This document shows, piece by piece, positions 14,485 through 64,000 of a DNA stretch of 64,000 bases (the stretch's first letter is position 1; the number at the start of each line of letters is the position of its first letter). The DNA is from Lamellibrachia columna. Lineage: Eukaryota; Annelida; Polychaeta; Sabellida; Siboglinidae. Made by a program: the position numbers and the translations under genes. The notes beneath the pieces are model-generated. The model was not told the DNA's origin. It saw only the letters and a list, made by a program, of their open reading frames with translations, and did no database searches. Location of the stretch: contig OY759266.1 in assembly GCA_963662155.1 (NCBI GenBank), forward strand, positions 61,464,911-61,528,910. The letters run 5' to 3'.

Positions 14485-14838
14485 AATATATCCCAGGACG
14501 ACCTTTGAGACTGTCCAGAAATACTCGGACACGTCTTCATACTCCAGCTCCTGATGGAGTAAGGTGCTGACTTTCACAGAGACCATTGCAGCTTGTAGTT
14601 CCAATCTTGGAATTGTGACGACCCGTAATGGTGTCACTCTGGCCTTTCCCATGACAAGGGAGCAGTGCACATTGTTCGCATCATCAACCAGTCTCAGATA
14701 CGAACATTGGCCATAACCTGTCATACTTGCATCAGAGAAGTGGTGCAGTTCGTGCTTCTCCACCTTCCCCAACGTCTCTGGCTGGAAGCCTCTTGGGATC
14801 TTGATGTTGGCTAATTCAGGTAGATCTTCTCTCCATCT
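14485..14838 (-). pseudogene. BEL/Pao RNase H region
   Basis: Directly follows the minisatellite on the minus strand: RWREDLPELANIKIPRGF, HHFSDASMTGYGQCSYLRL (first catalytic Asp), VMGKARVTPL, TIPRLELQAAMV (Glu) and EYFWTVSKVVLGYI. BEL elements normally have WTDSK at the last motif. Here the Asp is Val, which should abolish RNase H activity. The frame ends at the TGA at 14482. Confidence 0.85.
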
Positions 14839-14839
14839 T

Positions 14840-15663: not shown

Positions 15664-15821
15664 CTTGCAAGATCTACTTCCCGGTAAGCACAAATGGTGC
15701 CAGAAAGCCCAGTGTGTCGTAAACAGATGCTACAGTGGACAGGATGTATCGACGGGTCAGTGGACAGGATGTCTCGACGGGTCAGTGGTTGATGCTACAG
15801 TGGACAGGATGCCGCGACGGG
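15664..15821 (-). pseudogene. BEL/Pao RT thumb with small internal duplication
   Basis: The minus strand encodes [19 protein letters not shown], then two further partial copies of the TGACCCGTCG...CATCCTGTCCAC segment, before resuming with the expected ASVYD-like region (here frame-broken), LGFLAPF-like sequence and a TAG in place of a Gln codon before ILQE. The three related segments near 15735-15835 form a 25-40 bp tandem duplication. Confidence 0.7.
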
Positions 15822-28000: not shown

Positions 28001-31000
28001 GTAGGGTTGAATTTATCCAACTTTAAGGTACATCGTACTGGATGATGACTAGCAGTAGGGTTGAATTTATCCAACTTTAAGGTACATCGTACTGGATGAT
28101 GACTAGCAGTAGGGTTGAATTTATCCAACTTTAAGGTACATCGTACTGGATGATGACTAGCAGTAGGGTTGAATTTAAACAAATTTTAAGGTACATCGTA
28201 CTGGATGATGACTAGCAGTAGGGTTGAATTCATCCAAATTTAAGGTACATCGTACTGGATGATGACTAGCAGTAGTGTTGAATTTATCCAACTTTAAGGT
28301 ACATTGTACTGTATGATGACTAGCCGTAGGGTTGAATTTATCCATCTTTAAGGTACGTCGTACTGGATGATGACTAGCAGTAGGGTTGAATTTATCCAAC
28401 TTTAATGTACATTGTACTGGATGATGACTAGCAGTAGGGTTGAATTTATCCAACTATAAGGTACATTGTACTGTATGATGACTAGCCGTAGGGTTGAATT
28501 TATCCAACTTGAAGGTACGTCGTACTGGATGATGACTAGCAGTAGGGTTGAATTTATCCAACTTTAAGGTACATTGTACTGTATGATGACTAGCAGTAGG
28601 GTTGAATTTATCCAACTTTAAGGTACATTGTACTGTATGATGACTAGCCGTAGGGTTGAATTTATCCAACTTTAATGTACATTGTACTGTATGATGACTA
28701 GCAGTAGGGTTGAATTTATCCAACTATAAGGTACATTGTACTGTATGATGACTAGCCGTAGGGTTGAATTTATCCAACTTGAAGGTACGTCGTACTGGAT
28801 GATGACTAGCAGTAGGGTTGAATTTATCCAACTTTAAGGTACATTGTACTGTATGATGACTAGCAGTAGTGTTGAATTTATCCAACTTTAAGGTACATTG
28901 TACTGTATGATGACTAGCCGTAGGGTTGAATTTATCCATCTTTAAGGTACGTCGTACTGGATGATGACTAGCAGTAGGGTTGAATTTATCCAACTTTAAG
29001 GTACATTGTACTGTATGATGACTAGCAGTAGGGTTGAATTTATCCAACTTTAAGGTACATTGTACTGTATGATGACTAGCCGTAGGGTTGAATTTATCCA
29101 ACTTGAAGGTACGTCGTACTGGATGATGACTAGCAGTAGGGTTGAATTTATCCAACTTTAATGTACATTGTACTGGATGATGACTAGCAGTAGGGTTGAA
29201 TTTATCCAACTTTAAGGTACATCGAACTGGATGATGACTATTTATCCAACTTTAATGTACATTGTACTGGATGATGACTAGCAGTATGGTTGAATTTATC
29301 CATCTTTAAGGTACATCGTACTGTATGATGACTAGCAGTATGGTTGAATTTATCCAACTTTAAGGTACATTGTACTGGATGATGACTAGCAGTATGGTTG
29401 AATTTATCCAACTTTAATGTACATTGTACTGTATGATGACTAGCAGTAGGGTTGAATTTATCCATCTTTAAGGTACATCATACTGGATGATGACTAGCAG
29501 TAGGGTTGAATTTATCCAACTTTAATGTACATTGTACTGGATGATGACTAGCAGTATGGTTGAATTTATCCATCTTTAAGGTACATCGTACTGGATGATG
29601 ACTAGCAGTAGGGTTGAATTTATCCAACTTTAAGGTACATCGTACTGGATGATGACTAGCAGTAGGATTGAATTTATCCAACTTTAAGGTACATCGTACT
29701 GGATGATGAATAGCAGTAGGGTTGAATTTATCCAACTTTAAGGTACATTGTACTGTATGATGACTAGCAGTAGGGTTGAATTTATCCAACTTTAAGGTAC
29801 ATTGTACTGTATGATGACTAGCAGTAGGGTTGAATTTATTCAACTTTAAGGTACATTGTACTGTATGATGACTAGCAGTAGGGTTGAATTTATCCAACTT
29901 TAAGGTACATTGTACTGTATGATGACTAGCAGTAGGGTTGAATTTATCCAACTTTAAGGTACATTGTACTGTATGATAACTAGCCGTAGGGTTGAATTTA
30001 TCCATCTTTAAGGTACGTCGTACTGGATGATGACTAGCAGTAGGGTTGAATTTATCCAACTTTAAGGTACATTGTACTGTATGATGACTAGCAGTAGGGT
30101 TGAATTTATCCAACTTTAAGGTACGTCGTACTGGATGACGACTAGCAGTAGGGTTGAATTTATCCAACTTTAAGGTACATTGTACTGTATGATGACTAGC
30201 AGTAGGGTTGAATTTATCCAACTTTAAGGTACATCGTGCTGGATGATGACTAGCAGTAGGGTTGAATTTATCCAACTTTAAGGTACGTCGTACTGGATGA
30301 TGACTAGCCGTAGGGTTGAATTTATCCATCTTTAAGGTACGTCGTACTGGATGATGACTAGCAGTAGGGTTGAATTTATCCAACTTTAAGGTACATCGTA
30401 CTGGATGATGACTAGCAGTAGGGTTGAATTTATCCAACTTTAAGGTACATCGTACTGGATGATGACTAGCAGTAGGGTTGAATTTATCCAACTTTAAGGT
30501 ACATCGTACTGGATGATGACTAGCAGTAGGGTTGAATTTATCCAACTTTAAGGTACATCGTACTGGATGATGACTAGCAGTAGGGTTGAATTTTTTCCAA
30601 CTTTAAGGTACATCGTACTGGATGATGGCTAGCAGTAGGGTTGAATTTATCCAACTTTAAGGTACATCGTACTGGATGATGACTAGCAGTAGGGTTGAAT
30701 TTATCCAACTTTAAGGTACATCGTACTGGATGATGACTAGCAGTAGGGTTGAATTTAAACAAATTTTAAGGTACATCGTACTGGATGATGACTAGCAGTA
30801 GGGTTGAATTCATCCAACTTTAAGGTACATCGTACTGGATGATGACTAGCAGTAGTGTTGAATTTATCCAACTTTAAGGTACGTCGTACTGTATGATGAC
30901 TAGCAGTAGGGTTGAATTTATCCAACTATAAGGTACATTGTACTGTATGATGACTAGCAGTAGGGTTGAATTTATCCAACTTTAAGGTACATTGTACTGT

Positions 31001-34000
31001 ATGATGACTAGCCGTAGGGTTGAATTTATCCATCTTTAAGGTACGTCGTACTGGATGATGACTAGCAGTAGGGTTGAATTTATCCAACTTTAAGGTACAT
31101 TGTACTGGATGATGACTAGCCGTAGGGTTGAATTTATCCATCTTTAAGGTACGTCGTACTGGATGATGACTAGCAGTAGGGTTGAATTTATCCAACTTTA
31201 AGGTACGTCGTACTGGATGATGACTAGCAGTAGGGTTGAATTTATCCAACTTTAAGGTACGTCGTACTGGATGATGACTAGCAGTAGGGTTGAATTTATC
31301 CAACTTTAAGGTACATCGTACTGGATGATGACTAGCAGTAGGGTTGAATTTATCCAACTTTAAGGTACATCGTACTGGATGATGACTAGCAGTAGGGTTG
31401 AATTTATCCAACTTTAAGGTACATCGTACTGGATGATGACTAGCCGTAGGGTTGAATTTATCCATCTTTAAGGTACGTCGTACTGGATGATGACTAGCAG
31501 TAGGGTTGAATTTATCCAACTTTAAGGTACGTCGTACTGGATGATGACTAGCAGTAGGGTTGAATTTATCCAACTTTAAGGTACATCGTACTGGATGATG
31601 ACTAGCAGTAGGGTTGAATTTATCCAACTTTAAGGTACATCGTACTGGATGATGACTAGCAGTAGGGTTGAATTTATCCAACTTTAAGGTACATCGTACT
31701 GGATGATGACTAGCAGTAGGGTTGAATTTATCCAACTTTAAGGTACATCGTACTGGATGATGACTAGCAGTAGGGTTGAATTTATCCAACTTTAAGGTAC
31801 ATCGTACTGGATGATGACTAGCAGTAGGGTTGAATTTAAACAAATTTTAAGGTACATCGTACTGGATGATGACTAGCAGTAGGGTTGAATTCATCCAACT
31901 TTAAGGTACATCGTACTGGATGATGACTAGCAGTAGTGTTGAATTTATCCAACTTTAAGGTACGTCGTACTGGATGATGACTAGCCGTAGGGTTGAATTT
32001 ATCCATCTTTAAGGTACATCGTACTGGATGATGACTAGCAGTAGGGTTGAATTTATCCAACTTTAAGGTACATCGTACTGGATGATGACTAGCAGTAGGG
32101 TTGAATTTATCCAACTTTAAGGTACATCGTACTGGATGATGACTAGCAGTAGGGTTGAATTTATCCATCTTTAAGGTACATCGTACTGTATGATGACTAG
32201 CAGTAGGGTTGAATTTATCCATCTTTAAGGTACGTCGTACTGGATGATGACTAGCAGTAGGGTTGAATTTATCCATCTTTAAGGTACATCGTACTGTATG
32301 ATGACTAGCAGTAGGGTTGAATTTATCCATCTTTAAGGTACGTCGTACTGGATGATGACTAGCAGTAGGGTTGAATTTATCCATCTTTAAGGTACATCGT
32401 ACTGGATGATGACTAGCAGTAGGGTTGAATTTATCCAACTTTAAGGTACGTCGTACTGGATGATGACTAGCAGTAGTGTTGAATTTATCCAACTTTAAGG
32501 TACGTCGTACTGGATGATGACTAGCCGTAGGGTTGAATTTATCCAACTTTAAGGTACATCGTACTGGATGATGACTAGCAGTAGTGTTGAATTTATCCAA
32601 CTTTAAGGTACGTCGTACTGGATGATGACTAGCCGTAGGGTTGAATTTATCCAACTTTAAGGTTCGTCGTACTGGATGATGACTAGCAGTAGGGTTGAAT
32701 TTATCCAACTTTAAGGTACGTCGTACTGGATGATGACTAGCAGTAGGGTTGAATTTATCCATCTTTAAGGTACATCGTACTGTATGATGACTAGCAGTAG
32801 GGTTGAATTTATCTATCTTTAAGGTACATCGTACTGGATGATGACTAGCAGTAGGGTTGAATTTATCCATCTTTAAGGTACATCGTACTGTATGATGACT
32901 AGCAGTAGGGTTGAATTTATCCAACTTTAAGGTACATCGTACTGGATGATGACTAGCAGTAGGGTTGAATTTATCCATCTTTAAGGTACATCGTACTGTA
33001 TGATGACTAGCAGTAGGGTTGAATTTATCTATCTTTAAGGTACGTCGTACTGGATGATGACTAGCAGTAGGGTTGAATTTATCCAACTTTAAGGTACATT
33101 GTACTGGATGATGACTAGCCGTAGGGTTGAATTTATCCATCTTTAAGGTACATCGTACTGGATGATGACTAGCAGTAGGGTTGAATTTATCCAACTTGAA
33201 GGTACGTCGTACTGGATGATGACTAGCAGTAGGGTTGAATTTATCCAACTTTAAGGTACGTCGTACTGGATGATGACTAGCAGTAGGGTTGAATTTATCC
33301 AACTTTAAGGTACATCGTACTGGATGATGACTAGCAGTAGGATTGAATTTATTCAACTTTAAGGTACATCGTACTGGATGATGACTAGCAGTAGGGTTGA
33401 ATTTATCCAACTTTAAGGTACATCGTACTGGATGATGACTAGCAGTAGGGTTGAATTTATCCAACTTTAAGGTACATCGTACTGGATGATGACTAGCAGT
33501 AGGGTTGAATTTATCCAACTTTAAGGTACATCGTACTGGATGATGACTAGCAGTAGGGTTGAATTTAAACAAATTTTAAGGTACATCGTACTGGATGATG
33601 ACTAGCAGTAGGGTTGAATTCATCCAAATTTAAGGTACATCGTACTGGATGATGACTAGCAGTAGTGTTGAATTTATCCAACTTTAAGGTACGTCGTACT
33701 GTATGATGACTAGCAGTAGGGTTGAATTTATCCAACTTTAAGGTACATTGTACTGTATGATGACTAGCAGTAGGGTTGAATTTATCCAACTATAAGGTAC
33801 ATTGTACTGTATGATGACTAGCCGTAGGGTTGAATTTATCCAACTTGAAGGTACGTCGTACTGGATGATGACTAGCAGTAGGGTTGAATTTATCCAACTT
33901 TAAGGTACATTGTACTGTATGATGACTAGCAGTAGGGTTGAATTTATCCAACTTTAAGGTACATTGTACTGTATGATGACTAGCCGTAGGGTTGAATTTA

Positions 34001-37000
34001 TCCATCTTTAAGGTACGTCGTACTGGATGATGACTAGCAGTAGGGTTGAATTTATCCAACTTTAATGTACATTGTACTGGATGATGACTAGCAGTAGGGT
34101 TGAATTTATCCAACTATAAGGTACATTGTACTGTATGATGACTAGCCGTAGGGTTGAATTTATCCAACTTGAAGGTACGTCGTACTGGATGATGACTAGC
34201 AGTAGGGTTGAATTTATCCAACTTTAAGGTACATTGTACTGTATGATGACTAGCAGTAGGGTTGAATTTATCCAACTTTAAGGTACATTGTACTGTATGA
34301 TGACTAGCCGTAGGGTTGAATTTATCCAACTTTAATGTACATTGTACTGTATGATGACTAGCAGTAGGGTTGAATTTATCCAACTATAAGGTACATTGTA
34401 CTGTATGATGACTAGCCGTAGGGTTGAATTTATCCAACTTGAAGGTACGTCGTACTGGATGATGACTAGCAGTAGGGTTGAATTTATCCAACTTTAAGGT
34501 ACATTGTACTGTATGATGACTAGCAGTAGGGTTGAATTTATCCAACTTTAAGGTACATTGTACTGTATGATGACTAGCCGTAGGGTTGAATTTATCCATC
34601 TTTAAGGTACGTCGTACTGGATGATGACTAGCAGTAGGGTTGAATTTATCCAACTTTAATGTACATTGTACTGGATGATGACTAGCAGTAGGGTTGAATT
34701 TATCCAACTTTAAGGTACATCGAACTGGATGATGACTATTTATCCAACTTTAATGTACATTGTACTGGATGATGACTAGCAGTATGGTTGAATTTATCCA
34801 TCTTTAAGGTACATCGTACTGTATGATGACTAGCAGTATGGTTGAATTTATCCAACTTTAAGGTACATTGTACTGGATGATGACTAGCAGTATGGTTGAA
34901 TTTATCCAACTTTAATGTACATTGTACTGTATGATGACTAGCAGTAGGGTTGAATTTATCCATCTTTAAGGTACATCATACTGGATGATGACTAGCAGTA
35001 GGGTTGAATTTATCCAACTTTAATGTACATTGTACTGGATGATGACTAGCAGTATGGTTGAATTTATCCATCTTTAAGGTACATCGTACTGGATGATGAC
35101 TAGCAGTAGGGTTGAATTTATCCAACTTTAAGGTACATCGTACTGGATGATGACTAGCAGTAGGATTGAATTTATCCAACTTTAAGGTACATCGTACTGG
35201 ATGATGAATAGCAGTAGGGTTGAATTTATCCAACTTTAAGGTACATTGTACTGTATGATGACTAGCAGTAGGGTTGAATTTATCCAACTTTAAGGTACAT
35301 TGTACTGTATGATGACTAGCAGTAGGGTTGAATTTATTCAACTTTAAGGTACATTGTACTGTATGATGACTAGCAGTAGGGTTGAATTTATCCAACTTTA
35401 AGGTACATTGTACTGTATGATGACTAGCAGTAGGGTTGAATTTATCCAACTTTAAGGTACATTGTACTGTATGATAACTAGCCGTAGGGTTGAATTTATC
35501 CATCTTTAAGGTACGTCGTACTGGATGATGACTAGCAGTAGGGTTGAATTTATCCAACTTTAAGGTACATTGTACTGTATGATGACTAGCAGTAGGGTTG
35601 AATTTATCCAACTTTAAGGTACATTGTACTGTATGATAACTAGCCGTAGGGTTGAATTTATCCATCTTTAAGGTACGTCGTACTGGATGATGACTAGCAG
35701 TAGGGTTGAATTTATCCAACTTTAAGGTACATTGTACTGTATGATGACTAGCAGTAGGGTTGAATTTATCCAACTTTAAGGTACGTCGTACTGGATGACG
35801 ACTAGCAGTAGGGTTGAATTTATCCAACTTTAAGGTACATTGTACTGTATGATGACTAGCAGTAGGGTTGAATTTATCCAACTTTAAGGTACATCGTGCT
35901 GGATGATGACTAGCAGTAGGGTTGAATTTATCCAACTTTAAGGTACGTCGTACTGGATGATGACTAGCCGTAGGGTTGAATTTATCCAACTTTAAGGTAC
36001 ATCGTACTGGATGATGACTAGCAGTAGGGTTGAATTTATCCAACTTTAAGGTACATCGTACTGGATGATGACTAGCAGTAGGGTTGAATTTATCCAACTT
36101 TAAGGTACATCGTACTGGATGATGACTAGCAGTAGGGTTGAATTTATCCAACTTTAAGGTACATCGTACTGGATGATGACTAGCAGTAGGGTTGAATTTA
36201 TCCAACTTTAAGGTACATCGTACTGGATGATGGCTAGCAGTAGGGTTGAATTTATCCAACTTTAAGGTACATCGTACTGGATGATGACTAGCAGTAGGGT
36301 TGAATTTATCCAACTTTAAGGTACATCGTACTGGATGATGACTAGCAGTAGGGTTGAATTTAAACAAATTTTAAGGTACATCGTACTGGATGATGACTAG
36401 CAGTAGGGTTGAATTCATCCAACTTTAAGGTACATCGTACTGGATGATGACTAGCAGTAGTGTTGAATTTATCCAACTTTAAGGTACGTCGTACTGTATG
36501 ATGACTAGCAGTAGGGTTGAATTTATCCAACTATAAGGTACATTGTACTGTATGATGACTAGCAGTAGGGTTGAATTTATCCAACTTTAAGGTACATTGT
36601 ACTGTATGATGACTAGCCGTAGGGTTGAATTTATCCATCTTTAAGGTACGTCGTACTGGATGATGACTAGCAGTAGGGTTGAATTTATCCAACTTTAAGG
36701 TACATTGTACTGGATGATGACTAGCCGTAGGGTTGAATTTATCCATCTTTAAGGTACGTCGTACTGGATGATGACTAGCAGTAGGGTTGAATTTATCCAA
36801 CTTTAAGGTACGTCGTACTGGATGATGACTAGCAGTAGGGTTGAATTTATCCAACTTTAAGGTACATCGTACTGGATGATGACTAGCAGTAGGGTTGAAT
36901 TTATCCAACTTTAAGGTACATCGTACTGGATGATGACTAGCAGTAGGGTTGAATTTATCCAACTTTAAGGTACATCGTACTGGATGATGACTAGCCGTAG

Positions 37001-40000
37001 GGTTGAATTTATCCATCTTTAAGGTACGTCGTACTGGATGATGACTAGCAGTAGGGTTGAATTTATCCAACTTTAAGGTACGTCGTACTGGATGATGACT
37101 AGCAGTAGGGTTGAATTTATCCAACTTTAAGGTACATCGTACTGGATGATGACTAGCAGTAGGGTTGAATTTATCCAACTTTAAGGTACATCGTACTGGA
37201 TGATGACTAGCAGTAGGGTTGAATTTATCCAACTTTAAGGTACATCGTACTGGATGATGACTAGCAGTACGGTTGAATTTATCCAACTTTAAGGTACATC
37301 GTACTGGATGATGACTAGCAGTAGGGTTGAATTTATCCAACTTTAAGGTACATCGTACTGGATGATGACTAGCAGTAGGGTTGAATTTAAACAAATTTTA
37401 AGGTACATCGTACTGGATGATGACTAGCAGTAGGGTTGAATTCATCCAACTTTAAGGTACATCGTACTGGATGATGACTAGCAGTAGTGTTGAATTTATC
37501 CAACTTTAAGGTACGTCGTACTGGATGATGACTAGCCGTAGGGTTGAATTTATCCATCTTTAAGGTACATCGTACTGGATGATGACTAGCAGTAGGGTTG
37601 AATTTATCCAACTTTAAGGTACATCGTACTGGATGATGACTAGCAGTAGGGTTGAATTTATCCAACTTTAAGGTACATCGTACTGGATGATGACTAGCAG
37701 TAGGGTTGAATTTATCCATCTTTAAGGTACATCGTACTGTATGATGACTAGCAGTAGGGTTGAATTTATCCATCTTTAAGGTACGTCGTACTGGATGATG
37801 ACTAGCAGTAGGGTTGAATTTATCCATCTTTAAGGTACATCGTACTGTATGATGACTAGCAGTAGGGTTGAATTTATCCATCTTTAAGGTACGTCGTACT
37901 GGATGATGACTAGCAGTAGGGTTGAATTTATCCATCTTTAAGGTACATCGTACTGGATGATGACTAGCAGTAGGGTTGAATTTATCCAACTATAAGGTAC
38001 ATTGTACTGGATGATGACTAGCAGTAGGGTTGAATTTATCCATCTTTAAGGTACATCGTACTGTATGATGACTAGCAGTAGGGTTGAATTTATCCATCTT
38101 TAAGGTACGTCGTACTGGATGATGACTAGCAGTAGGGTTGAATTTATCCAACTTTAAGGTACATCGTACTGGATGATGACTAGCAGTAGTGTTGAATTTA
38201 TCCAACTTTAAGGTACGTCGTACTGGATGATGACTAGCCGTAGGGTTGAATTTATCCAACTTTAAGGTTCGTCGTACTGGATGATGACTAGCAGTAGGGT
38301 TGAATTTATCCAACTTTAAGGTACGTCGTACTGGATGATGACTAGCAGTAGGGTTGAATTTATCCATCTTTAAGGTACATCGTACTGTATGATGACTAGC
38401 AGTAGGGTTGAATTTATCTATCTTTAAGGTACATCGTACTGGATGATGACTAGCAGTAGGGTTGAATTTATCCATCTTTAAGGTACATCGTACTGTATGA
38501 TGACTAGCAGTAGGGTTGAATTTATCCAACTTTAAGGTACATCGTACTGGATGATGACTAGCAGTAGGGTTGAATTTATCCATCTTTAAGGTACATCGTA
38601 CTGTATGATGACTAGCAGTAGGGTTGAATTTATCTATCTTTAAGGTACGTCGTACTGGATGATGACTAGCAGTAGGGTTGAATTTATCCAACTTTAAGGT
38701 ACATTGTACTGGATGATGACTAGCCGTAGGGTTGAATTTATCCATCTTTAAGGTACATCGTACTGGATGATGACTAGCAGTAGGGTTGAATTTATCCAAC
38801 TTGAAGATACGTCGTACTGGATGATGACTAGCAGTAGGGTTGAATTTATCCAACTTTAAGGTACGTCGTACTGGATGATGACTAGCAGTAGGGTTGAATT
38901 TATCCAACTTTAAGGTACATCGTACTGGATGATGACTAGCAGTAGGATTGAATTTATCCAACTTTAAGGTACATCGTACTGGATGATGACTAGCAGTAGG
39001 GTTGAATTTATCCAACTTTAAGGTACATCGTACTGTATGATGACTAGCAGTAGGGTTGAATTTATCCAACTTTAAGGTACATCTTACTGGATGATGACTA
39101 GCAGTAGGGTTGAATTTATCCAACTTTAAGGTACATCGTACTGGATGATGACTAGCAGTAGGGTTGAATTTATCCAACTTTAAGGTACATTGTACTGGAT
39201 GATGACTAGCAGTAGGGTTGAATTGATCCATCTTTAAGGTACATCGTACTGTATGATGACTAGCAGTAGGGTTGAATTTATCCATCTTTAAGGTACGTCG
39301 TACTGGATGATGACTAGCAGTAGGGTTGAATTTATCCAACTTTAAGGTACATCGTACTGTATGATGACTAGCAGTAGGGTTGAATTTATCCAACTTTAAG
39401 GTACTTCGTACTGGATGATGACTAGCCGTAGGGTTGAATTTATCCAACTTTAAGGTACGTCGTACTGGATGATGACTAGCAGTAGGGTTGAATTTATCCA
39501 ACTTTAAGGTACATTGTACTGGATGATGACTAGCAGTAGGGTTGAATTTATCCAACTTGAAGGTACATCGTACTGGATGATGACTAGCAGTAGGGTTGAA
39601 TTTATCCAACTTTAAGGTACATTGTACTGTATGATGACTAGCAGTATGGTTGAATTTATCCAACTTTAAGGTACATTGTACTGGATGATGACTAGCAGTA
39701 GGGTTGAATTTATCCAACTTTAAGGTACATCGTACTGTATGATGACTAGCAGTAGGGTTGAATTTATCCATCTTTAAGGTACGTCGTACTGGATGATGAC
39801 TAGCAGTAGGGTTGAATTTATCCAACTTTAAGGTACATCGTACTGGATGATGACTAGCAGTAGGGTTGAATTTATCCAACTTTAAGGTACATCGTACTGG
39901 ATGATGACTAGCAGTAGGGTTGAATTTATCCAACTTTAAGGTACATTGTACTGTATGATGACTAGCAGTAGGGTTGAATTTATCCAACTTTAAGGTACAT

Positions 40001-40466
40001 TGTACTGTATGATGACTAGCAGTAGGGTTGAATTTATCCAACTTTAAGGTACATCGTACTGGATGATGACTAGCAGTAGGGTTGAATTTATCCATCTTTA
40101 AGGTACATCGTACTGGATGATGACTAGCAGTAGGGTTGAATTTATCCAACTTTAAGGTACGTCGTACTGGATGACGACTAGCAGTAGGGTTGAATTTATC
40201 CAACTTTAAGGTACATCGTACTGGATGATGACTAGCAGTAGGGTTGAATTTATCCAACTTTAAGGTACGTCGTACTGGATGATGACTAGCAGTAGGGTTG
40301 AATTTATCCATCTTTAAGGTACGTCGTACTGGATGATGACTAGCAGTAGGGTTGAATTTATCCATCTTTAAGGTACGTCGTACTGGATGATGACTAGCAG
40401 TAGGGTTGAATTTATCCATCTTTAAGGTACGTCGTACTGGATGATGACTAGCAGTAGGGTTGAATT
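22072..40466. repeat. 54-bp satellite array, about 340 copies (18.4 kb)
   Basis: The unit runs from GGGTTGAATTTATCCAAC to GATGACTAGCAGTA and repeats head to tail without foreign insertions. Variation concentrates at a few two-state sites: AGCAGT/AGCCGT, TAGGGTT/TATGGTT, CCAAC/CCATC, TACAT/TACGT, ATCG/ATTG and CTGGA/CTGTA. Because 54 is 18 codons, the one stop-free minus frame (LDKFNPTASHHPVRCTLK) stays open for up to 850 codons. It is broken only by a recurring 14-bp deletion, AAG-to-TAG changes and a recurring TTTAAACAAATT variant. Blocks are duplicated at several scales. I interpret it as satellite DNA, not a gene. Confidence 0.97.
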
Positions 40467-45849: not shown

Positions 45850-46811
45850 TTCGGGAAATTCCCTGCTGACTTTTGTTAACCAGCATTAAACGTTTCAGCC
45901 GGATCGCCGGTGGCAAAACACATTGTGATATATGGGAACTACACAGGGGGTAGTAGCAGGGTTGGTTGGTTGGTGGGGGCATCTACCGTCAGCCACCACT
46001 GGATGGCGTAACTGAGTGGAGCTGGTTACAGGAGTAGCCCTAGGCGTCTACCCGAGTCTCCCGGCCGCCACAGCTGTGTAGTATCACGGAGGCACTTTAA
46101 TTAAAATATTTGTCACGAGACGCGGGTTAATTGCTTCAGCGAGCGACCAGATGTTTCAGTGGATCGGTGCAATCGATCGCGGCCGGCCGGGCGCACTTCC
46201 GCTGCTCGCGGGGGGGGGAGGGTTGTCAGACGGCAGCCTTGTGGGAGCCTTCGTCGACGGCTTCTAATCCTCGGTCAGGTGACGAGACCAGACCGTCGGT
46301 TAACGCCGTAGAGTTGTTCGCAAGCTCTCCCGAACAGCAAGCCGGTTAGACGAAAACAGTTGGCTCTGCCCGTCCCCCGCCCGACCTGGCAGCGGTAGAG
46401 CCGCCGTACGGGTCGCTCTCGCCGCGCTAAATGGTTGTGCGTCTAACACCTGGCGAAGGTCCGTTATCTGAGGCTAGCAGGCCGCGTAGAAAAGTCTCAC
46501 AAAGCCGCCGCTTGTGCTATTTTGATATTCCAATGCATCGACGTTATACAGCTACTAGGGCGGTGGGGTGGCTCCGGCCGAGATGGGGGTGTGTCTAGTC
46601 CGGCCGCTACGCGCGCTGCAGGCGATAGCACTGAGGCGGCCGCGTCGCTTGAGCGATAGCCATCTGAATGCGGTTAGTCAATAAATAACGCGCATCTAAA
46701 GAATTCTTTAACGTTTCACATCTGGCCACTTGTCGTCGGCGCTGGCTCTAGCGGTGGCTGTGCAGTGGCGGCGGTGGCTGACTGGCTTGTAGGCTGCTGG
46801 CGGCGGCAGTC
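45850..46811 (+). promoter_or_regulatory. CpG-rich 5' region of ATOH8
   Basis: From about 46000 the DNA becomes strikingly GC- and CpG-rich compared with its surroundings (CCGGCCGCC, GCGGCCGC and many CG dinucleotides), continuing into ATOH8 exon 1. This resembles a CpG-rich promoter or 5' UTR of a developmental gene. Two E-box sequences, CATCTG and CACTTG, lie near 46719-46733, about 80 bp before the start codon. An AATAAATAA stretch near 46680 is the only TATA-like element. The transcription start cannot be placed. Confidence 0.5.
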
Positions 46812-47910
46812 ATGGATGAGGCGGCGGTGGAACACACCTGTTCTGACGGGCCGGCGGGCCTCGCTACACCGTCGCGCAAGAACAAACGCAAAATGAAGGA
46901 ACCTCGCAAGCGGAAGGACTCGGTCTCGAAGCGTCGGTGTCAGGACAGCACGGACTCCGACCCTGGCGAGGCTTCAGAGCTCGGAGGCCCACCGCGGGAG
47001 ACCCCTGACAGTACGCCGTCCCCGGCCGGGTCAGGCGGCTCCACGGCCGATAGTCGCTACCCGTTGACCGTACCGCATGTCTACAGCAGGTTTACTTCGA
47101 CATTCCGGGTGGACACACCCGACCCGGAGGCAGGCAGTGTAGACCTGTCCGTCTCGAGTGCCGAGTGGGCGATGGCCGCGCGGAAACAACGCAAGAACTA
47201 CAAAAACATGACCAGAGAACGACGGGTCGAGGCGAACGCCCGCGAGCGAACCCGGGTTCACGCCATCAGTGCGGCGTTTGAGGGTCTGCGGCGGGCTGTG
47301 CCGTCATACTCCTACAACCAGCGTCTCTCGAAACTCGCCATCCTGCGCATCGCATGCAGGTCTGTAACACGTAGCCTTATTGTCTGCGTTCGGTCTTGCA
47401 AATATGTACAGCGTATTTTGATTGGCTGCATATAGCAAGCTAGTCCGCAACCTACATTCTGATTGGCTGACACCGATATAGTAAGCACGTAACTGTTATT
47501 TTTATTGTTACGATTGATTCGATTTGGAAGCCAAATAACGGATAGCGTTTTAGATGTAGTAGGAATTATATACAGTAGAGATTATATTTGTTTTAATCAA
47601 TGTCTTTTCTAAAATGATATTTGCCTTTGAAGAATTGAAGAATTGAGGTTACAGTTAATGTGTTGCTATTTTCATTGTGAAGACTAGTGCGGACCAAACT
47701 ATCAATGTTCCAACAAGAAACGGACACAATACAGCCTGTGGCGATTTTTGCTGACGTTCCGTTGCTGTCTGTCACAGTTACATCCTGTCGTTGTCCCGCC
47801 TCGCACAGCTCGACTACAGTCACGACCAGAGCAGGCTCTCCTTCGCCGAGTGCGTCGACCTGTGCACCGACACCATACAGGCGGAGGGGCGCGCCAAACG
47901 CCGGCACTGA
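46812..47910 (+). CDS. ATOH8: ATOH8/net-family bHLH transcription factor, two coding exons
   Basis: Exon 1 is 46812-47359 (donor AG|GTCTGT), the intron is 418 bp, and exon 2 is 47778-47910 (acceptor CTGTCACAG), giving 226 aa. Residues 22-42 are basic (NKRKMKEPRKRK), a likely nuclear signal. Residues about 137-190 form the bHLH: basic region VEANARERTRVH, helix 1 ISAAFEGLRRAVP, loop SYSYNQ, helix 2 LSKLAILRIACSYILSL. The tail LSFAEC...IQAEGRAKRRH is the family's C-terminal extension. The intron splits a Ser codon within helix 2. In other animals ATOH8 binds E-boxes with E-proteins in neural, muscle and endothelial differentiation. The protein is shorter than the roughly 320 aa of vertebrates. 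The Met at 46812 sits at the end of the CpG-rich leader, and no upstream in-frame extension is evident. Confidence 0.95.
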
Positions 47911-55045: not shown

Positions 55046-57012
55046 TTTGGTGACATGTTAACAACACAGCTACAGAGGCAGACTATAAATATGTCGATAT
55101 CAAAGTTCTGATGTGAACTTTGACACAGGACTGTGGTCAAGCAACTGGTGTGCGTGGACACATATCTACGAATGACCACTGTCCACTATGTCAGTCAGTG
55201 ACCACATTAGCCACGGATGTGATTATTCTTGACTTTCCGAAATCCTCTAATCATGTGCACCACGTTAGTGTTTCGCTGCGTTTCGACGTACACGTACCGA
55301 GCTGCTATAAAAGTTGCCCAGTTGGAATGGCGGCAGACAAACGAAATGTGATTCATGTTATGTTACATTTACCAAGTTGGCAGACATAGAGTGGATGCGT
55401 CAGGATTAACAATGTGTATATAAAGCAATTACAATTTACAATGTCCCAGTCTGTTTATGTCACGTTATATTTTTTTTCAGATTATTTTATTTTTATGTTG
55501 TTGCTGCCAATAATGGAATTGTATGTATATAAAATTACACACATATATATTATTTTATGTTATTAGTGAATATATATATCCGTATAGATCATTTGCATAA
55601 ATGAAGAAAGTAAACATTATTGTATTGTTGTCGTTGTTGTTGTAGACCTAACTGGAATACGTTATTTGCCAACATTGTGCACGCACGCACACACACACAC
55701 GAACGCGCACGCACACACACGTACACACACGTACACATACGCCTACAATAATTTATCAGCATAGGCCTACATAAAATATTATAATTATTATGAATCGGGA
55801 CCTGGGAGTGCGTATTTCACGAACATTAAATTCACAATCCAAGTTGGAGATTTTCAATTGTAATATTAGAATAAATGTGTGCAAAAACGATTTATATAAG
55901 AACTGCAGAATAATGACTGCCCGGTGATTGGTCCCGGCCGGACCGGACATATGGCGTCCACAGGCCACAGCCATCACTGCCACCTGGTCCACGGGGGTCG
56001 CTCAAAGGTCACGCCGACTGTTTGCGTTCACAGCCACTTACATAACTGTTAGTTCCGTGGCGCAGATGGTTCAGATGGTCGAACGACTTCATTAGTCGGT
56101 CGCCAGAGTCATCGCACACCTGCCGGTTCCTTGCTTTGCCCGCCAGGAGCGATGCATAGCAAACACAAGCAGGTGGTATTCTGACGTCACACATCGCGTG
56201 TACCGTTTTCGATGCAACCTAGCTACTACACCAGCCCTCTGGACACCAGCCATCCAGTCGGGCTGTGTGACGTCAGAGGTTGTCAATAGTCCGATAATCC
56301 TACCATTGTGGCTCCGAGTGAAACGAAGCTTTCAGATGGAGCTGTAATTTGTTGCATTAAAGTACTGAGCAATGCCGGGCTTTCTCACCAGTTCTCCTGT
56401 GATTACGAATAAACAGAACAGAAAATATGAATTATATAATCGCTGAATGTAGTGGGCAGAAATAAATCAGATCGTTTTAATATGAACCTCACCAGAAGAC
56501 CGGACACATATAGTACCGATCCGGTCAAATATTGGCTGACCCCAGAAGATACCGAGGCAGGCCATGTCCTGTCCCGTAGTGTTCCGTTAGTCTGCACCTC
56601 CTCGTAGACGAATGCTTCTTGAAAACATCGGATCCATTTAAAAAAACAATTTCTTCATTATTTTAACTTCAGCGCGCACACAGGGAAAGCAAACACGATG
56701 AGGACCACCACTGATTTCTGGCTGACCTTCAGTTAGTCCGAATCATTCCAACACGAATACGACATTTCTTACAAACTTTATAAACAAATAAATAAATGCT
56801 TGACATCGGCATTGATCAACTCTACAGAATAGTTGATGTTGCGGGTACAAAAACATATTCACGCTACAGCAACGATACGACAATCATACAGCAACGATAC
56901 GACAATCATACAACAACGATACAATGCCATCGACTAGTGGCGCCATCTTCTGAACCAATGCACAACTCTGGCTCTATGGGTTTTACCGAATCGTGATCGA
57001 CAGGCCAACCAA
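55046..57012. other. Non-coding DNA
   Basis: An ACAC/ACGC microsatellite lies at 55679-55740. Three ACAACGATACGACAATCAT-type units lie at 56868-56925. No coding family recognised. Confidence 0.45.
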
Positions 57013-57489
57013 GGCCGAGTTCGACTTGCCGACCAAAGCGACCAGTGGTCACTCTTAGTCGCGACCAGCGTAAGTCGAAATGTCTGACATTCTGTCTGAC
57101 CTGGTTTGGTCAGAATTACGTCACACCGACCAACCAACTTTGCCACCGCCTTCAGGCAGTGGAAACTCTGGTCACCATGGTAACAAACGTAGCTTCATCA
57201 GAAACAAGAAGAGCATTTGCCCGTATTGAAGTCATCTTCTTCATATCGTTTTTGTTTTGTAATATACCATTGTTTCCTGTGTGTGCTAGTATAGTGATAG
57301 ATATTGATGTTATTGATATTACATTTAGGTACGTTAGAAGCTGCTTGCCACCACTGTGAAACAACCAGCGTTGACTCATTCTATTCGGTTTAGATTAGTC
57401 AGATCTACATGTACGCATGCGTCATACGATATATGTTGGTTTTGTTCACCGACAACAGGTCGGTGTTAGTCGGCAAGTCGAACTCGGCC
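57013..57489. mobile_element. MITE-like element with 21-bp perfect terminal inverted repeats
   Basis: 57013-57033 and 57469-57489 are exact reverse complements over 21 bp (GGCCGAGTTCGACTTGCCGA plus one more base). The 477-bp element has no coding capacity. The left subterminal part is rich in GACCAG/GTCGCGACC. I see no convincing target duplication (flanks ACCAA and CTCAT). It lies just downstream of KAT8. Confidence 0.8.
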
Positions 57490-57786
57490 CTCATTTGTTG
57501 GTACAGCATCCAATAGTGGCCCGTCTGTGACCATAACACAGCAGTTCTTTTGCTGCAAGCTCCACGCATGCACAAGCTGCCAGAATCAATACTTCACAAA
57601 ATAAAAAGACATTTGAGTACATGCTTCCCAGCAGAATTTGGTCAAGGTAGACATTTTACAACGTCCGATTCGCAGTCAGTCCAGCCCGATGTACACTCTA
57701 TCAGTCAGTCACATCTCCCACATGTCATAAACACAGTTTGCTGTGACACGTGATCTCCAACAGTTTGTTTTCCACGTTGTTTGTGG
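57490..57786 (-). other. KAT8 3' untranslated region and flank
   Basis: Follows the KAT8 stop on the minus strand. No convincing AATAAA was found on that strand before the MITE-like element. Confidence 0.4.
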
Positions 57787-58003
57787 TCATTTCTTGTTGA
57801 TCTTTGGTACTCTCTGTGGAGGACACCACCTGAGACAGGCTGTGTCCACTACCATCACTGGCCGCTTGTACTGGGCACTCTTGATGTGTTCCTCCACTAG
57901 CTTTGGCGTCACACAGATGACATGCTGCCCCTTCCAGTACTTCACCATGTTGAGAGTCTGCAGCGTGGAGATGATGTCAGTCTGGGTGATGGAGGTCATC
58001 CGA
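57787..58003 (-). CDS. KAT8: KAT8 (MOF) MYST acetyltransferase, last coding exon
   Basis: From the acceptor (GTGACTCCTGCTTCCAG; exon starts at 58003) the frame reads [32 protein letters not shown] and on to the stop at 57787. This is the characteristic C-terminus of KAT8/MOF (winged-helix-like end of the MYST domain, then [13 protein letters not shown] and CLRWCPP with a Lys-rich tail). KAT6, KAT7 and KAT5 differ clearly here. The exon begins with the third base of a codon (T), which joins AG from the preceding exon as Ser (KDL-S-RMTS). KAT8 acetylates histone H4 Lys16 within MSL and NSL complexes. The Met at 58020 lies in the intron. The catalytic core is outside the window. Confidence 0.95.
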
Positions 58004-58117
58004 CTGGAAGCAGGAGTCACAAAGGTCAGTCTCTCTCAAGAATAACCAAGCACAATGGACTCTTGTTGCAAGGAACATCAACTTAAAAGGAACAAATTCC
58101 TGTTCTGGCCTGCACTG

Positions 58118-58227
58118 TTTTATGTACCCATGGACAAAAGAACATTTTATATATGGAAGAGTTTGACCAAGTGTTTTATGTACCCATGGACAAAAGAACA
58201 TTTTATATATGGAAGAGTTTGACCAAG
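58118..58227. repeat. 55-bp tandem duplication
   Basis: Two identical copies starting TTTTATGTACCCATGGACAA and ending GAGTTTGACCAAGTG. Confidence 0.97.
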
Positions 58228-58289
58228 TGCCAACATGTTCCTCGTATGAGAGTACACTATATAATAATAATAATTGACTTCTATGGCGC

Positions 58290-60020
58290 CTATATCCTCA
58301 GGAACCTGAGCTCAGAGGCGCAACAAAACAGAATCAGTAAGCGTAATCGTAAACAGGGACGCGCAAAAGTCAGTATCAGAACGAGGGACAACCGAACATT
58401 TATGGTGGGAATGCAATTTGGAATAGATGTCTTGAGTTTTTTTCGGAAAATAGCAATAGTTTCAGATGTTTTCAAAGTGATAGTGAGTTCATTCCGGACC
58501 CTAGGTGCAGCAACAGAGAAAGCGCGTTTACCCAAGTTAAGTTTTGTTTTAGGTACAATAAGTTGTTGTGAAGTTGATGATCTTAGCTGCCTAGGGATAT
58601 TTGAAAGATGCAGGAGACTAGCCAAGTAGGATGGTTGTTGTGTAGATAGAGCACGATATGCAAGAGTGGACAGCTTAAAATTAATTCGATAAGAAACTGG
58701 AAGCCAGTGTAACTGTTTAAGTAGTGGTAGTGATGGTGAAAACCGAGGCGCCCTGAGAACCACACGTGCCAGACAATTTTGTACTCATTGGAGTTTAGCC
58801 AAGTCTCTTTTAGCAATGTTATTTAGTAGTGAATTGCAATAGTCAAGGCGGCTGCTAATTAGTGCCGTTGATATTGTTTTAGCAGTAGATATAGATATGT
58901 GACGCCGAATTCGACGAATATGATAGAAACAGGATTTACATACTTGAGAGATATGCTGGCGAAAGTTGAAGTCACTGTCAAAGACAACACCTAGATTGCG
59001 AACAATATCTGATGGGAATGTATCACTGCCAAGCAGTTTAACTGGGAAATGGTTGATGACTTTATTTCGTTGTTGTTTAGTGCCAATAATAATAAGGTCT
59101 GTTTTATCTGGATTAAGCTTTAGCTTACTTGATTCCATCCACGACAAGATATCAGTGAGACAGTCACTTAAAGTCGAAAGAGATTCTTGTACATTTGATT
59201 GTGAAAGTGATATGTAAACCTGTGTGTCATCAGCATAAAGGTGATGACTGAGATTACGATTAGCAATAACTTGGCTGAGCATTGTAGTATATAAGCTGAA
59301 CAGAACAGGGCCAAGGACGGATCCTTGTGGCACTCCAAATGGTAGATGTGGGCTAGATAATGTGCCAGATATGTTAATACTTTGATATCTGTCTGATAAA
59401 ATGATTTGAACCACTGAAGAGCTGGGCTAGAAATTCCAAAATATCTATGGAGGCGTTGTAAAAGGATCGAATGATCAATTGTATCGAAAGCAGCTGAGAG
59501 ATCAAGTAAAGTGAGTGCTGTGACTTTGCCATTGTCCATGTTATCAACTATATCATTGTGTATCTTGAGAAGAGTTGTTTCGGTAGAGTGAAATTGTTTA
59601 TATGCAGACTGTAGATCATTTGATAAGTGATGGTTGTAAATATGTTCATGAAGGCGATTAGCAACTACTTTTCCAATATTTTTGACAGAAAACTGAGATT
59701 AGAGATAGGACGATAATTCCTTAGGTCATCTTTGCACAAAGTTTGTTTTTTAATAAGAGGATTTACAAGAGCTTGTTTGAAATCCTGCGGAACAACTCCC
59801 CTCTGCATTGAAAGGTTTATGATAGTAGTAATGGGAAAGATGAGTTGATCGATACAGCTTTTTAGTAGAAGTGTTGGAAATGGGTCAAGATCACACGATT
59901 TGTTAGGATATTTTTTAATAATGATGAGAACTTCATTAGTAGTTGCAGGTGTGAAACTCTGTAGTGTTTTTTCAGAAAGTGGTGGTTCAGGGAAAACGTA
60001 GTCATTATCATTAATGACAA
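58290..60020 (-). pseudogene. L2-type LINE reverse transcriptase, frameshifted
   Basis: In order: CDLDPFPTLLLKSCID and NYRPISNLSFLSKILEK (about 59680-59900, ending in a TAG), LLDLSAAFDTIDHSILLQRL (catalytic Asp block, about 59450-59510), then after a shift GVPQGSVLGPVLF, HHLYADDTQVYIS (YADD box) and KLKLNPDKTDLIIIGTK (58785-59414). After another shift come LKQLHWLPVSYRINFKLSTL and PSYLASLL (58290-58763). All blocks match the L2/CR1 pattern. At least three frame breaks make it inactive. Confidence 0.9.
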
Positions 60021-60024
60021 AATT

Positions 60025-61391
60025 TTATTGAATACGAGCAATCTTATCTGTAAAGTATTTTGAAAAAGAACTACACAATGTATCCAATGAAGAATGTTCA
60101 GGCAGTGCTTTTAATTTCTGCCGATGTAGAATTGTGTTAACAGATTTCCACATCTGGCGAGGGTTTTCAGAATTTGTTGTGATAAAATGTGTATAGTAAT
60201 CAGACTTTGCTTTTGACATCATGTGATTGCATATATGTAGCTGTTTAGTATAACGGGATCGATCAATTGGAGAACGAGTTCGTCGCCAAATTCTTTCAAG
60301 ATATCGATGACGACGTTTTCCTACAATTATATCATTAGACATCCATGGTGATAGAGGGCGAACTTGTACACTTTTGGTTTGTTTCGGAGCATGTTTATCC
60401 AGAAGTTTACTTAATGTTTCATTGTACTGATTAACAAGCTCGCATAGTGTAGATTTAGGTTTGATCAAAAGATCAGAATTTGCTAGATCGTCATGAAGGG
60501 TATTTATGTTTATTTTATTTATTGGTCGAAATGTGATAATTTTTTTTCTAGATCTTGAGCCAACTTGCAACCACAAATCAATGATGACACAATGGTGATC
60601 TGATAAACCATCAGTAGGGAATATTGCTTTAATGTTAGTGCAAGTAGATCTAGTAATAAACAGGTCGAGCCAATGACCATGAACATGTGAAGGAAATGAA
60701 ACGTGTTGATGTAATGCATATGTTTGAAGGACATCCATGAATGATCTAGTATTTGGACATGGTAGATCAAGGTGGATATTGAAATCTCCAAACATGTAAA
60801 TGTCTTCTTGGAATTGTAAGGTGGTTTCAAGGATATCTGGAAATTCATCAAAGAATGTATTTGTGCTTGCAAGAGGATGGTAGATGCATATAAAATTAGC
60901 AGATAAGGATGAATGTTTTATAACAATACATATTACCTCAAAGCTTTGGTATTGAGGTGTATGAATAGTTTCTACTTTATATATTTCAGGTACAAGGAAT
61001 GCGACTCCACCACCCCTACCTGAACGACGGGGTGATGGTATAGGCAAAAACCATTTGGACAAATATCAGCAAGACAGGCTGATGTATCAGATGCTAATAG
61101 CCATGTTTCTGTCAAAGCTAAAATGTCTATGTGTTTAGATAATATCAGATCAGAAAGGGCAGCAGATTTATGACATACAGATCGAACATTAGTAGTGGCA
61201 AAGCACATGTTTTGAAATGTTTTTGGTCCAGGATTTATTGAGACATCATCTGCAAGAAGGAGGATGATAGACAGTCTAAATGATGGGTTACAACCAGATT
61301 TAGTAGACCATTTTCTGTGTGTACACCATTTTTCTTTAAACAATGTAGACAAAGATAATAAACAAATGACCAGCACGAAGAGAAAATACAT
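60025..61391 (-). pseudogene. L2-type LINE N-terminus: 2A-like motif and APE endonuclease, frameshifted
   Basis: The frame from Met 61391 starts with a signal-peptide-like stretch (YFLFVLVICLLSLSTLF), then LLADDVSINPGP, then the endonuclease start TTNVRSVCHKSAALSDLI and ILALTETWL (catalytic Glu). After a shift near 61050 the frame 60025-61062 continues with GRGGGVAFLV, CIYHPLAS, MFGDFNIHLD, SFPSHVHGHWLDLFIT and LSDHHCVI (Asp-His). NPGP preceded by a D-V/I-E-x motif is a ribosome-skipping 2A peptide in several APE-type LINEs. Here the Glu position is Ser, so function is doubtful. Confidence 0.85.
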
Positions 61392-61440
61392 TATTATATG
61401 CTCAGTGATGAGTAAGGCTAAGTGCAGCTGCTGGGAAAGA

Positions 61441-62106
61441 AGTCACAATTCTGGGATTAAGACTAATTTATTTAATTAGAAATATTGACCAGGGCCGACT
61501 CTGATCACTAAATTGTGACTCCTAGGCCTGTTAGATGTTAACTAGGAGTTATAAGTGCATAGTCGCGTGCTGAATAATTAAAATATTACAAAATAGAAGC
61601 AACTATATTAAGAGCATACAATTATAACGTTTAATTTAAAAAATACCAAAACAACGAAAATGATTTGTGCCAGCGACAAGAATGGGCGATAATAAAAGCA
61701 GACAGTTAACGCATAACTGTCGAAGTATAAAACTTGATGTAAAAATACTTATCTTGACACTGACGTTGTGGTTAACATAAAACAGCCCATTTAAATATTA
61801 TATTACGTAACACTGATTTAAAACTAAAACACTGTAAAGTTTTAAAATGTATAAAATAGCGGAGAACCAAATGTTTGAAATAGTGAAGTTGGCAGCCTCG
61901 TTCTCGGTCACATGTATGTTAAAGTAGGTCAAATCAAATGCTATTTTTTCGATAAAGACGATTTATGCAATGAAAATCACTACTTTTTTACATTGTAGCT
62001 GTAAATTTGTTAAAATTAACGATATTTCTAATATTTCAACTATTTTCAAACAGTGATTCAATGCCCAGTATAATGCTTACTCAGCATTTAGCATTCTGTA
62101 GCTCAC
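61441..62106. other. AT-rich intronic DNA
   Basis: Nothing recognised between the LINE and the KAT8-derived array. Confidence 0.5.
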
Positions 62107-64000
62107 CTGTGTTCCTTGATAGACAGCGTTCCCTTGAAGTCCCTCAGTATCTCCAGTAACACACACGACCAGTAACTTCTGTTACTCACCTTAGATCCTT
62201 GACAGACAGCGTTCCCTTGAAGTCCCTCAGTATCTCCAGTAACACCCACGACCAGTAACTTCTGTTACTCACCTTAGATCCTTGACAGACAGCGTTCCCT
62301 TGAAGTCCCTCAGTATCTCCAGTAACACCCACGACCAGTAACTTCTGTTACTCACCTTAGATCCTTGATAGACAGCGTTCCCTTGAAGTCCCTCAGTATC
62401 TCCAGTAACACCCACGACCAGTAACTTCTGTTACTCACCTTAGATTCTTGACAGACAGCGTTCCCTTGAAGTCCCTCAGTATCTCCAGTAACACCCACGA
62501 TCAGTAACTTCTGTTACTCACCATAGATCATTGATAGACAGCGTTCCCTTGAAGTCCCTCAGTATCTCCAGTAACACCCACGACCAGTAACTTCTGTTAC
62601 TCACCTTAGATCCTTGATAGACAGCGTACCCTTGAAGTCCCTCAGTATCTCCAGTAACACACACGACCAGTAACTTATGTTACTCACCTTAGATCCTTGA
62701 TAGACAGCTTACCCTTGAAGTCCCTCAGTATCTCCAGTAACACCCACGACCAGTAACTTCTGTTACTCACCTTAGATCCTTGATAGACAGCGTTCCCTTG
62801 AAGTCCCTCAGTATCTCCAGTAACACCCACGACCAGTAACTTCTGTTACTCACCTTAGATCCTTGATAGACAGCGTTCCCTTGAAGTCCCTCAGTATCTC
62901 CAGTAACACCCACGACCAGTAACTTCTGTTACTCACCTTAGATCCTTGATAGACAGCGTTCCCTTGAAGTCCCTCAGTATCTCCAATAACACCCACGACC
63001 AGTAACTTCTGTTACTCACCTTAGATCCTTGATAGACAGCGTTCCCTTGAAGTCCCTGAGTATCTCCAGTAACACCCACGACCAGTAACTTCTGTTACTC
63101 ACCATAGATCCTTGATAGACAGCGTTCCCTTGAAGTCCCTCAGTATCTCCAGTAACACCCACGACCAGTAACTTCTGTTACTCACCTTAGATCCTTGATA
63201 GACAGTGTTCCCTTGAAGTCCCTCAGTATCTCCAGTAACACCCACGACCAGTAACTTCTGTTACTCACCTTAGATCCTTGATAGACAGCGTACCCTTGAA
63301 GTCCCTCAGTATCTCCAGTAACACCCACGACCAGTAACTTCTGTTACTCACCTTAGATCCTTGATAGACACCGTTCCCTTGAAGTCCCTCAGTATCTCCA
63401 GTAACACCCACGACCAGTAACTTCTGTTACTCACCATAGATCCTTGATAGACAGCGTTCCCTTGAAGTCCCTCAGTATCTCCAGTAACACCCACGACCAG
63501 TAACTTCTGTTACTCACCTTAGATCCTTGACAGACAGCGTTCCCTTGAAGTCCCTCAGTATCTCCAGTAACACCCACGACCAGTAACTTCTGTTACTCAC
63601 CTTAGATCCTTGACAGACAGCGTTCCCTTGAAGTCCCTCAGTATCTCCAGTAACACCCACGACCAGTAACTTCTGTTACTCACCTTAGATCCTTGATAGA
63701 CAGCGTTCCCTTGAAGTCCCTCAGTATCTCCAGTAACACCCACGACCAGTAACTTCTGTTACTCACCTTAGATTCTTGACAGACAGCGTTCCCTTGAAGT
63801 CCCTCAGTATCTCCAGTAACACCCACGATCAGTAACTTCTGTTACTCACCATAGATCATTGATAGACAGCGTTCCCTTGAAGTCCCTCAGTATCTCCAGT
63901 AACACCCACGACCAGTAACTTCTGTTACTCACCTTAGATCCTTGATAGACAGCGTACCCTTGAAGTCCCTCAGTATCTCCAGTAACACACACGACCAGTA
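62107..64000 (-). repeat. KAT8: 83-bp array of KAT8 penultimate exon end plus splice donor, at least 22 copies
   Basis: Units recur every 83 bp from 62107 to the window edge. On the minus strand each reads as 24 codons, [20 protein letters not shown] then IKDL, plus AG, then the donor GTGAGTAAC. This is the KAT8 segment that directly precedes the last exon (57787-58003); AG joins its first T to make Ser. The leftmost copy differs (Trp to Cys, KDL to KEH, donor GTGAGC followed by unique intron). Copies also vary at GATAG/GACAG, GCGTTCC/GCGTACC and CCTTAG/CCATAG. The unit lacks an acceptor, so at most one copy can be the true exon end; by position this should be the 5'-most copy, beyond the right edge. 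Confidence 0.93.

Follow-up and report, generated by a model that had tools for sequence, protein, structure and literature searches.

A 41-unit minisatellite across the 3' end of KAT8 exon 9, one of several splice-site arrays in an array-rich region

The window analysed here, a stretch of 64,000 nucleotides with a GC content of 41.6% (C6:61464911-61528910), lies on a 63.05-Mb contig, about 1.5 Mb short of its end, in an assembly of 880 Mb and 30 contigs. Most earthworms are listed at 40-41% GC (PMC12130307), which makes an earthworm-like host no more than a guess. Its minus strand holds the end of a KAT8 gene, the rest of which was found in the right flank, beyond the window. The gene has 10 exons with GT/AG borders and an open frame of 447 amino acids, and the peptide of the repeat unit described below, joined to the last exon, matched PDB chains of KAT8 (E 2e-49) as well as Pfam MOZ_SAS, in agreement with the name proposed in an earlier note on this DNA. 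Of 581 KAT8 relatives, the 120 listed reach at most 87% identity (84% over the full query), and no Branchiostoma is named among them. Amphioxus, first considered as the host, was dropped on these grounds, since a Branchiostoma would be expected to match KAT8 almost exactly, provided that the database contains one. The last coding exon, exon 10, occupies 57787..58003 (minus strand) up to the end of the stop codon. It begins at 58003, where the note had placed it, behind the acceptor CTTCCAG, which only 1.1% of the window's AG sites equal or surpass on a rough pyrimidine score, and it continues in the phase that had been claimed (S-R-MTSITQ...KINKK-stop). The whole of intron 9 measures 7423 nt (58004-65426, minus strand), with 58004..64000 inside the window, and includes the remains of a non-LTR retrotransposon (58290..61442, minus strand), named from its open reading frames by eye. 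A perfect 56-bp duplication at 58116-58229, little over 110 bp upstream of the exon 10 acceptor, is possibly a newborn minisatellite.

The 3' end of exon 9 and the start of this intron form a minisatellite. Within the 64-kb window, TRF placed it at 62094..64000 (minus strand), with a period of 83 bp, 23.0 copies and 97% matches, and splitting the minus strand into units yielded 22 full units (62098-63923) plus 77 bp of another at the window edge. The more than 22 tandem units counted previously are therefore present, in an array larger than was claimed: it continues past the window edge and comprises 41 units as assembled (62098-65500, in coordinates of the extended window). Its start had been set at 62107, which leaves out the intron-side end of the last unit (62098-62180). 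Each unit joins the last 74 nt of exon 9 to 9 nt of intron and includes a strong 5' splice site (AAG|GTGAGT). The minus-strand consensus encodes a 24-residue peptide plus AG, followed by the donor GTGAGTAAC, or GTGAGCTAC in the last unit. This composition, once ascribed to every unit, stands as a consensus, the exact peptide being encoded by 23 of the 41 units, and does not extend to unit 41, which has diverged. Units 1-40 show a mean identity of 97.6%; 14 of the 41 units, including units 1-4 at the exon edge, are identical to the consensus, and two of the 41 contain a stop codon. A tandem array of such length and identity is no chance match.

At its right end, unit 1 of the array joins the body of KAT8 exon 9 (CTATGAG...CTCAGCTACAGAAGTTAC, encoding 25 residues) without a break. 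The exon copy with its upstream coding sequence thus lies where the earlier note predicted that rightward extension would find it, and the fusion bears out the proposal that 74 nt of exon end and 9 nt of intron were amplified in place. That the units might instead form a dispersed pseudogene array, with a working KAT8 elsewhere, has an almost negligible probability: a complete open gene surrounds the array, all 13 array matches listed in the assembly fall in one place, and a whole-genome protein search of the 880 Mb showed no second KAT8 among the 60 matches listed. The other loci in that search, on C2, C6 (26.4 Mb) and C12, are all at most 73% identical and were taken for MYST paralogs.

The terminal, intron-most unit 41 (62098..62180, minus strand; SCV...KEH) differs from the remaining units by a mean of 6.9 changes, against 2.0 among units 1-40; its peptide has KEH for KDL and C for W, and its donor reads CAG|GTGAGC. 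A block of 16 units is present twice, first as units 9-24 (63509-64836) and again as units 25-40 (62181..63508, minus strand). The two blocks show 5 differences in 1328 bp (99.6% identical) and share an exact run of 509 bp, at shift 1328, inside the window part of the array, whereas the other unit shifts from 1 to 32 give a mean of 1.6-2.3 differences per unit. Judged from these alignments, the 16-unit block is a recent duplication. Two blocks this similar are also a place where copy number can go wrong; however, we regard multiplication of the tandem copies by the assembler as very unlikely, because variants are scattered over the units, both ends of the array are anchored in unique sequence, and a 54-bp array elsewhere in the window has a like block structure, with exact repeats of up to 1019 bp.

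Variation among the units looks neutral in kind. Units 1-40 contain 5 silent, 9 replacement and 1 stop variants, counted as distinct coding changes, and the possible single changes in a unit divide into 49 silent, 153 replacement and 14 stop. Among the window units, 4 of 12 variants were silent (P = 0.28). The comparison of silent with replacement variants revealed no coding constraint on the decoys, either in the window units or over units 1-40, and they look unconstrained as protein. Variants strike S5, W6 and, in unit 41, L24, three residues that are invariant in 117 KAT8 relatives (those of the 120 listed that contain YRSYW and at least 92 residues after it, a choice of rows that itself fixes R1 to W4). 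None of the nine intronic positions varies in the window units (P = 0.20 against exonic positions) and one of nine does over units 1-40. Homogenisation, gene conversion with the true exon and simple recency had all been offered as causes of the retained coding sequence; the neutral variants, and the 5 changes in 1328 bp between the 16-unit blocks, favour recency and block homogenisation.

GTGAG is retained throughout the 41 units. The donor 9-mer is AAGGTGAGT in 35 units, ATGGTGAGT in five and CAGGTGAGC in one, and that of donor 1 is identical to those of 34 other units; more than 20 near-identical 5' splice sites in a row, as had been claimed, do exist. On a rough matrix made for this analysis, AAGGTGAGT is the best of the nine KAT8 donors, and its level is reached by only 2 of 5078 GT sites on both strands of the window outside the 17 listed arrays. 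None of 13 units scored from other arrays of the window held a donor that comes close in strength to that of the KAT8 unit. U1 duplex energies simply reproduced the donor classes.

When donor 1 is used, the reading frame stays open up to the 58004 acceptor that precedes MTSITQ, giving a protein of normal length. In silico use of donors 2, 3 and 5 ended the protein after 376 amino acids each time, straight after SIKDLR, because use of a later donor meets a TGA within the first donor, in line with what had been noted for read-through. Since the stop sits in the first extension, donors beyond those tried must share it. Splicing most likely uses the first donor, because exon 9 then has an ordinary length (151 nt) with its upstream acceptor, and because this is the sole open mRNA that the 41 donors offer; first-donor use would keep KAT8 working. 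When two strong donors compete, the intron-proximal one tends to win, which would favour a decoy unless exon length decides, and exon length is our best guess as to what makes donor 1 win. In reporters, the choice among competing 5' splice sites depends on the intervening sequence (PMC1877881). Predicted accessibility did not set donor 1 apart, its opening energy of 7.38 kcal/mol being the commonest value in the array. The motif AGTAAC-AGAA-GTTACT, found at 36 of 40 unit junctions (62094-65502), could fold into a 6-bp hairpin that covers positions +4 to +9 of the donor; control of donor choice by this hairpin was considered and dropped, because opening energies do not distinguish donor 1. An Rfam search of 57000-64000 gave no match at gathering scores.

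Each unit also contains GTGAGTAACAG, and the array could in principle be read as a row of 72-nt exons, in which each unit-to-unit splice contributes 24 in-frame residues to a repeated domain. Joining the donor of one unit to the AG|AAG of a later unit does keep the frame, and a related intron-gain model is described for amphioxus globins (PMC3087553). Nevertheless, we consider such a row extremely improbable: the pseudo-acceptor lacks a pyrimidine tract (59% of the AG sites of the window score at least as high on the rough score that places the true acceptor at 1.1%), and in the 117 relatives the unit peptide directly precedes S-x-M, with no second copy.

The two ends of the array suggest how it arose. 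The sequence is CTC-AGCTACAGAA-GTTAC at the exon side and GTG-AGCTACAGAA-TGC on the side of the last unit that faces the intron, and this 10-bp word is the longest common to both ends. The exon-side copy lies at 65497-65506 and the intron-side copy at 62094..62103 (minus strand), where it overlaps the terminal donor; in a single-copy state, the two places would be parted by one unit length. This direct repeat is the likely founder of the array. In the single-copy ancestor that we infer, one AGCTACAGAA lay in the exon, as part of the codons S-Y-R, and a second, at a distance of 83 bp, straddled the donor (GTG|AGCTACAGAA). Unequal exchange or slippage involving these copies would have duplicated 74 nt of exon and 9 nt of intron in tandem, and later exchange, including the recent duplication of the 16-unit block, would have raised the number to 41 units. 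The internal junctions read AGTAACAGAA, or near it, rather than AGCTACAGAA. This difference counts against the founder model, which needs two changes that arose and spread after founding.

Altogether, it is highly probable that the array originated where it now stands, as a new minisatellite at the 3' end of exon 9 of KAT8, and grew to 41 units, with the exon-edge unit functional and the rest unconstrained. The unit at the exon-side edge would remain the functional end of the exon, and the 40 others would be intronic and free of coding constraint. Leaky use of a decoy would end the frame after residue 376, ahead of the final exon junction, and nonsense-mediated decay should remove the resulting mRNA. 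The 10-bp repeat suggests a route of donor capture, in which part of the donor serves as one arm of a short direct repeat.

KAT8 contains a second array of this sort, across the acceptor of exon 5 (38 bp × 7.2; extended window 72192-72467, L009:8692-8967). It comprises six exact copies of TGTTACAG|ATCACC, the true acceptor included, and splicing to the nearest upstream decoy would lengthen the protein by 13 in-frame residues. In the 283.5 kb around the window (C6:61364911-61648410), 111 arrays with a period of at least 15 make up 38% of the DNA. In the flanks of 11 arrays picked for splice-like signals, exons encoding ankyrin and KH domains revealed another minus-strand gene, at 122-181 kb of the extended window; four of five of its exon peptides had Pfam matches and the fifth had none. 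We take this neighbour of KAT8 to be an ANKHD1/ANKRD17-like gene, as human ANKHD1 segments match 20 places there. To its 20 exons we assigned 19 acceptors and 16 donors by eye, and six of these splice sites lie inside arrays of 3 to 42 copies. Four of the 11 picked arrays are such splice-site arrays, and two further ones were identified. All are on the minus strand, three at acceptors (178872, 60 bp × 36; 167105, 24 bp × 13; 155565, 41 bp × 41) and three at donors (175847, 44 bp × 42; 173490, 22 bp × 3.4; 155283, 58 bp × 3.2).

Thus, 8 of the 53 assigned splice sites lie in arrays, two of 18 in KAT8 and six in the ANKHD1-like gene. At all eight, the array is on the intron side and the apparent true site at its exon edge. 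The 38% coverage would predict about 20 such sites (P ~2e-4, computed with n = 54, one above the 53 assigned). Arrays drawn to splice sites were rejected as an explanation, because splice sites in arrays are rarer than coverage predicts; most array hits on splice sites have probably been lost. At three paralog loci inside contigs, we found few arrays and none at the end of an exon match, in a small sample of 18.25 kb and 18 exon matches. Against this small sample, array density looks regional.

These neighbouring arrays bear on whether the KAT8 array has a function, either because a variable number of decoys sets KAT8 dosage through a truncated, decay-prone isoform, or because U1 capture shapes the intron. 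The GTGAG of all 41 units, the identity of 35 of 41 donor 9-mers and the same early stop expected from every decoy count in favour of such a function. However, the units vary in a neutral manner, the intronic positions show no significantly greater constancy than the exonic ones, and like structures at seven other nearby splice sites suggest a mutational cause; we hold a functional array to be unlikely. On our preferred reading, a minisatellite born in place, the array itself would have no function, and its birth in an array-rich region would have been tolerated because the exon-side edge still holds the true site. A broader proposal is that this region, close to a chromosome end, repeatedly gives rise to minisatellites at splice sites, and that changes in decoy copy number produce allele-specific mis-spliced, decay-bound mRNA that tunes genes. 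We find it rather doubtful; if true, the region would provide a natural ladder of near-identical competing sites at fixed spacing.

The founding paper on the Adh mirage reportedly appeared in NAR in 2002. Mirages are exon-intron boundary minisatellites of amphioxus, described from Adh3, the globins BflGb6 and BflGb9, troponin C and PGBD5, with both donor and acceptor types (PMC3087553, PMC3902484). Reported are 3-6 units in BflGb6 and 2-7 in PGBD5, and regular mRNAs for Adh3, the globins and troponin C; the RT-PCR of the globins and the data on Adh3 suggest that regular splicing continues (PMC3087553, PMC3902484); units at the cluster edges of BflGb6 escape homogenisation (PMC3087553). Like amphioxus mirages, the KAT8 units (83 bp × 41) span a splice site within a gene and lie in place in an intact gene, with the true boundary, presumably in use to judge from the frame, at one edge. 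As in BflGb6, the intron-edge unit 41 stands outside homogenisation (6.9 against 2.0 differences); exon-edge units 1-4 equal the consensus. Unlike amphioxus mirages, the KAT8 array has a host that is probably a lophotrochozoan and not a cephalochordate, it has 41 units rather than the 3-6 of BflGb6 or the 2-7 of PGBD5, and several mirages occur in KAT8 and its neighbour gene.

A model attributed to Rogers reportedly explains intron gain by tandem duplication of segments bearing AG/GT, with cases in potato RdRp and Drosophila. The KAT8 duplication likewise carries splice signals; in contrast to that model, an existing intron grows, the exon is unchanged and, as far as the sequence shows, no new intron forms. 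Variable human tandem repeats in segmental duplications and young paralogs are mainly minisatellites, some of them at exon-intron boundaries, where they may form introns (PMC2812944). The available part of an earthworm study describes metallothionein genes with large first-intron minisatellites of repeated microstructure and, in one clone, duplicated fourth exons that are absent from the transcript (PMC12783039). These lophotrochozoan genes resemble KAT8 in having a large intronic minisatellite; unlike in the KAT8 array, the units are not described, in that part, as holding a splice site (PMC12783039).

We recognised no splice-site array from a lophotrochozoan among the papers listed in searches of the open-access literature, judged mostly by titles and the openings of abstracts. 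The kind of structure is already known from amphioxus, and what is new is its host, copy number and clustering. The KAT8 array extends mirages, by name, beyond amphioxus, to which the open-access papers that we found assign them, and links them with an array-rich region close to the end of a contig. Its 41 near-identical 5' splice sites, spaced at 83 nt in a gene that is widely conserved and was found once in the assembly, constitute a natural experiment in splice-site competition, in which donor choice could prove to follow exon length, the order of synthesis or proximity to the acceptor. Gene-finding programs and tools for short reads will probably go wrong at such loci.

The window contains other arrays and coding regions. 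The largest array, at 22073-40466, spans 18.4 kb with a 54-bp unit in about 340 copies and nested block duplications, exact over up to 1019 bp; its long minus-strand open frames are probably a by-product of the 54-bp period. A 15-copy, 55-bp minisatellite (14839-15663) lies inside the coding region of a BEL/Pao-like retrotransposon (12635-18955, minus strand, from open reading frames read by eye), and a 24-bp coding minisatellite with SRGGETEE repeats (7359-7494) in the first open reading frame of a CR1-like element, also identified by eye, the reverse transcriptase frame of which has thousands of relatives. On the plus strand, 46782-47435 holds the first exon of an ATOH8-like bHLH gene, with 73-77% identity to three other sequences; among relatives that carry a name, the best are from molluscs, an annelid and a nemertean. 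In a tree of 28 rows chosen from 120 listed, none of them from a cephalochordate, this exon falls in a lophotrochozoan set, outside the named molluscs (support 96/92).
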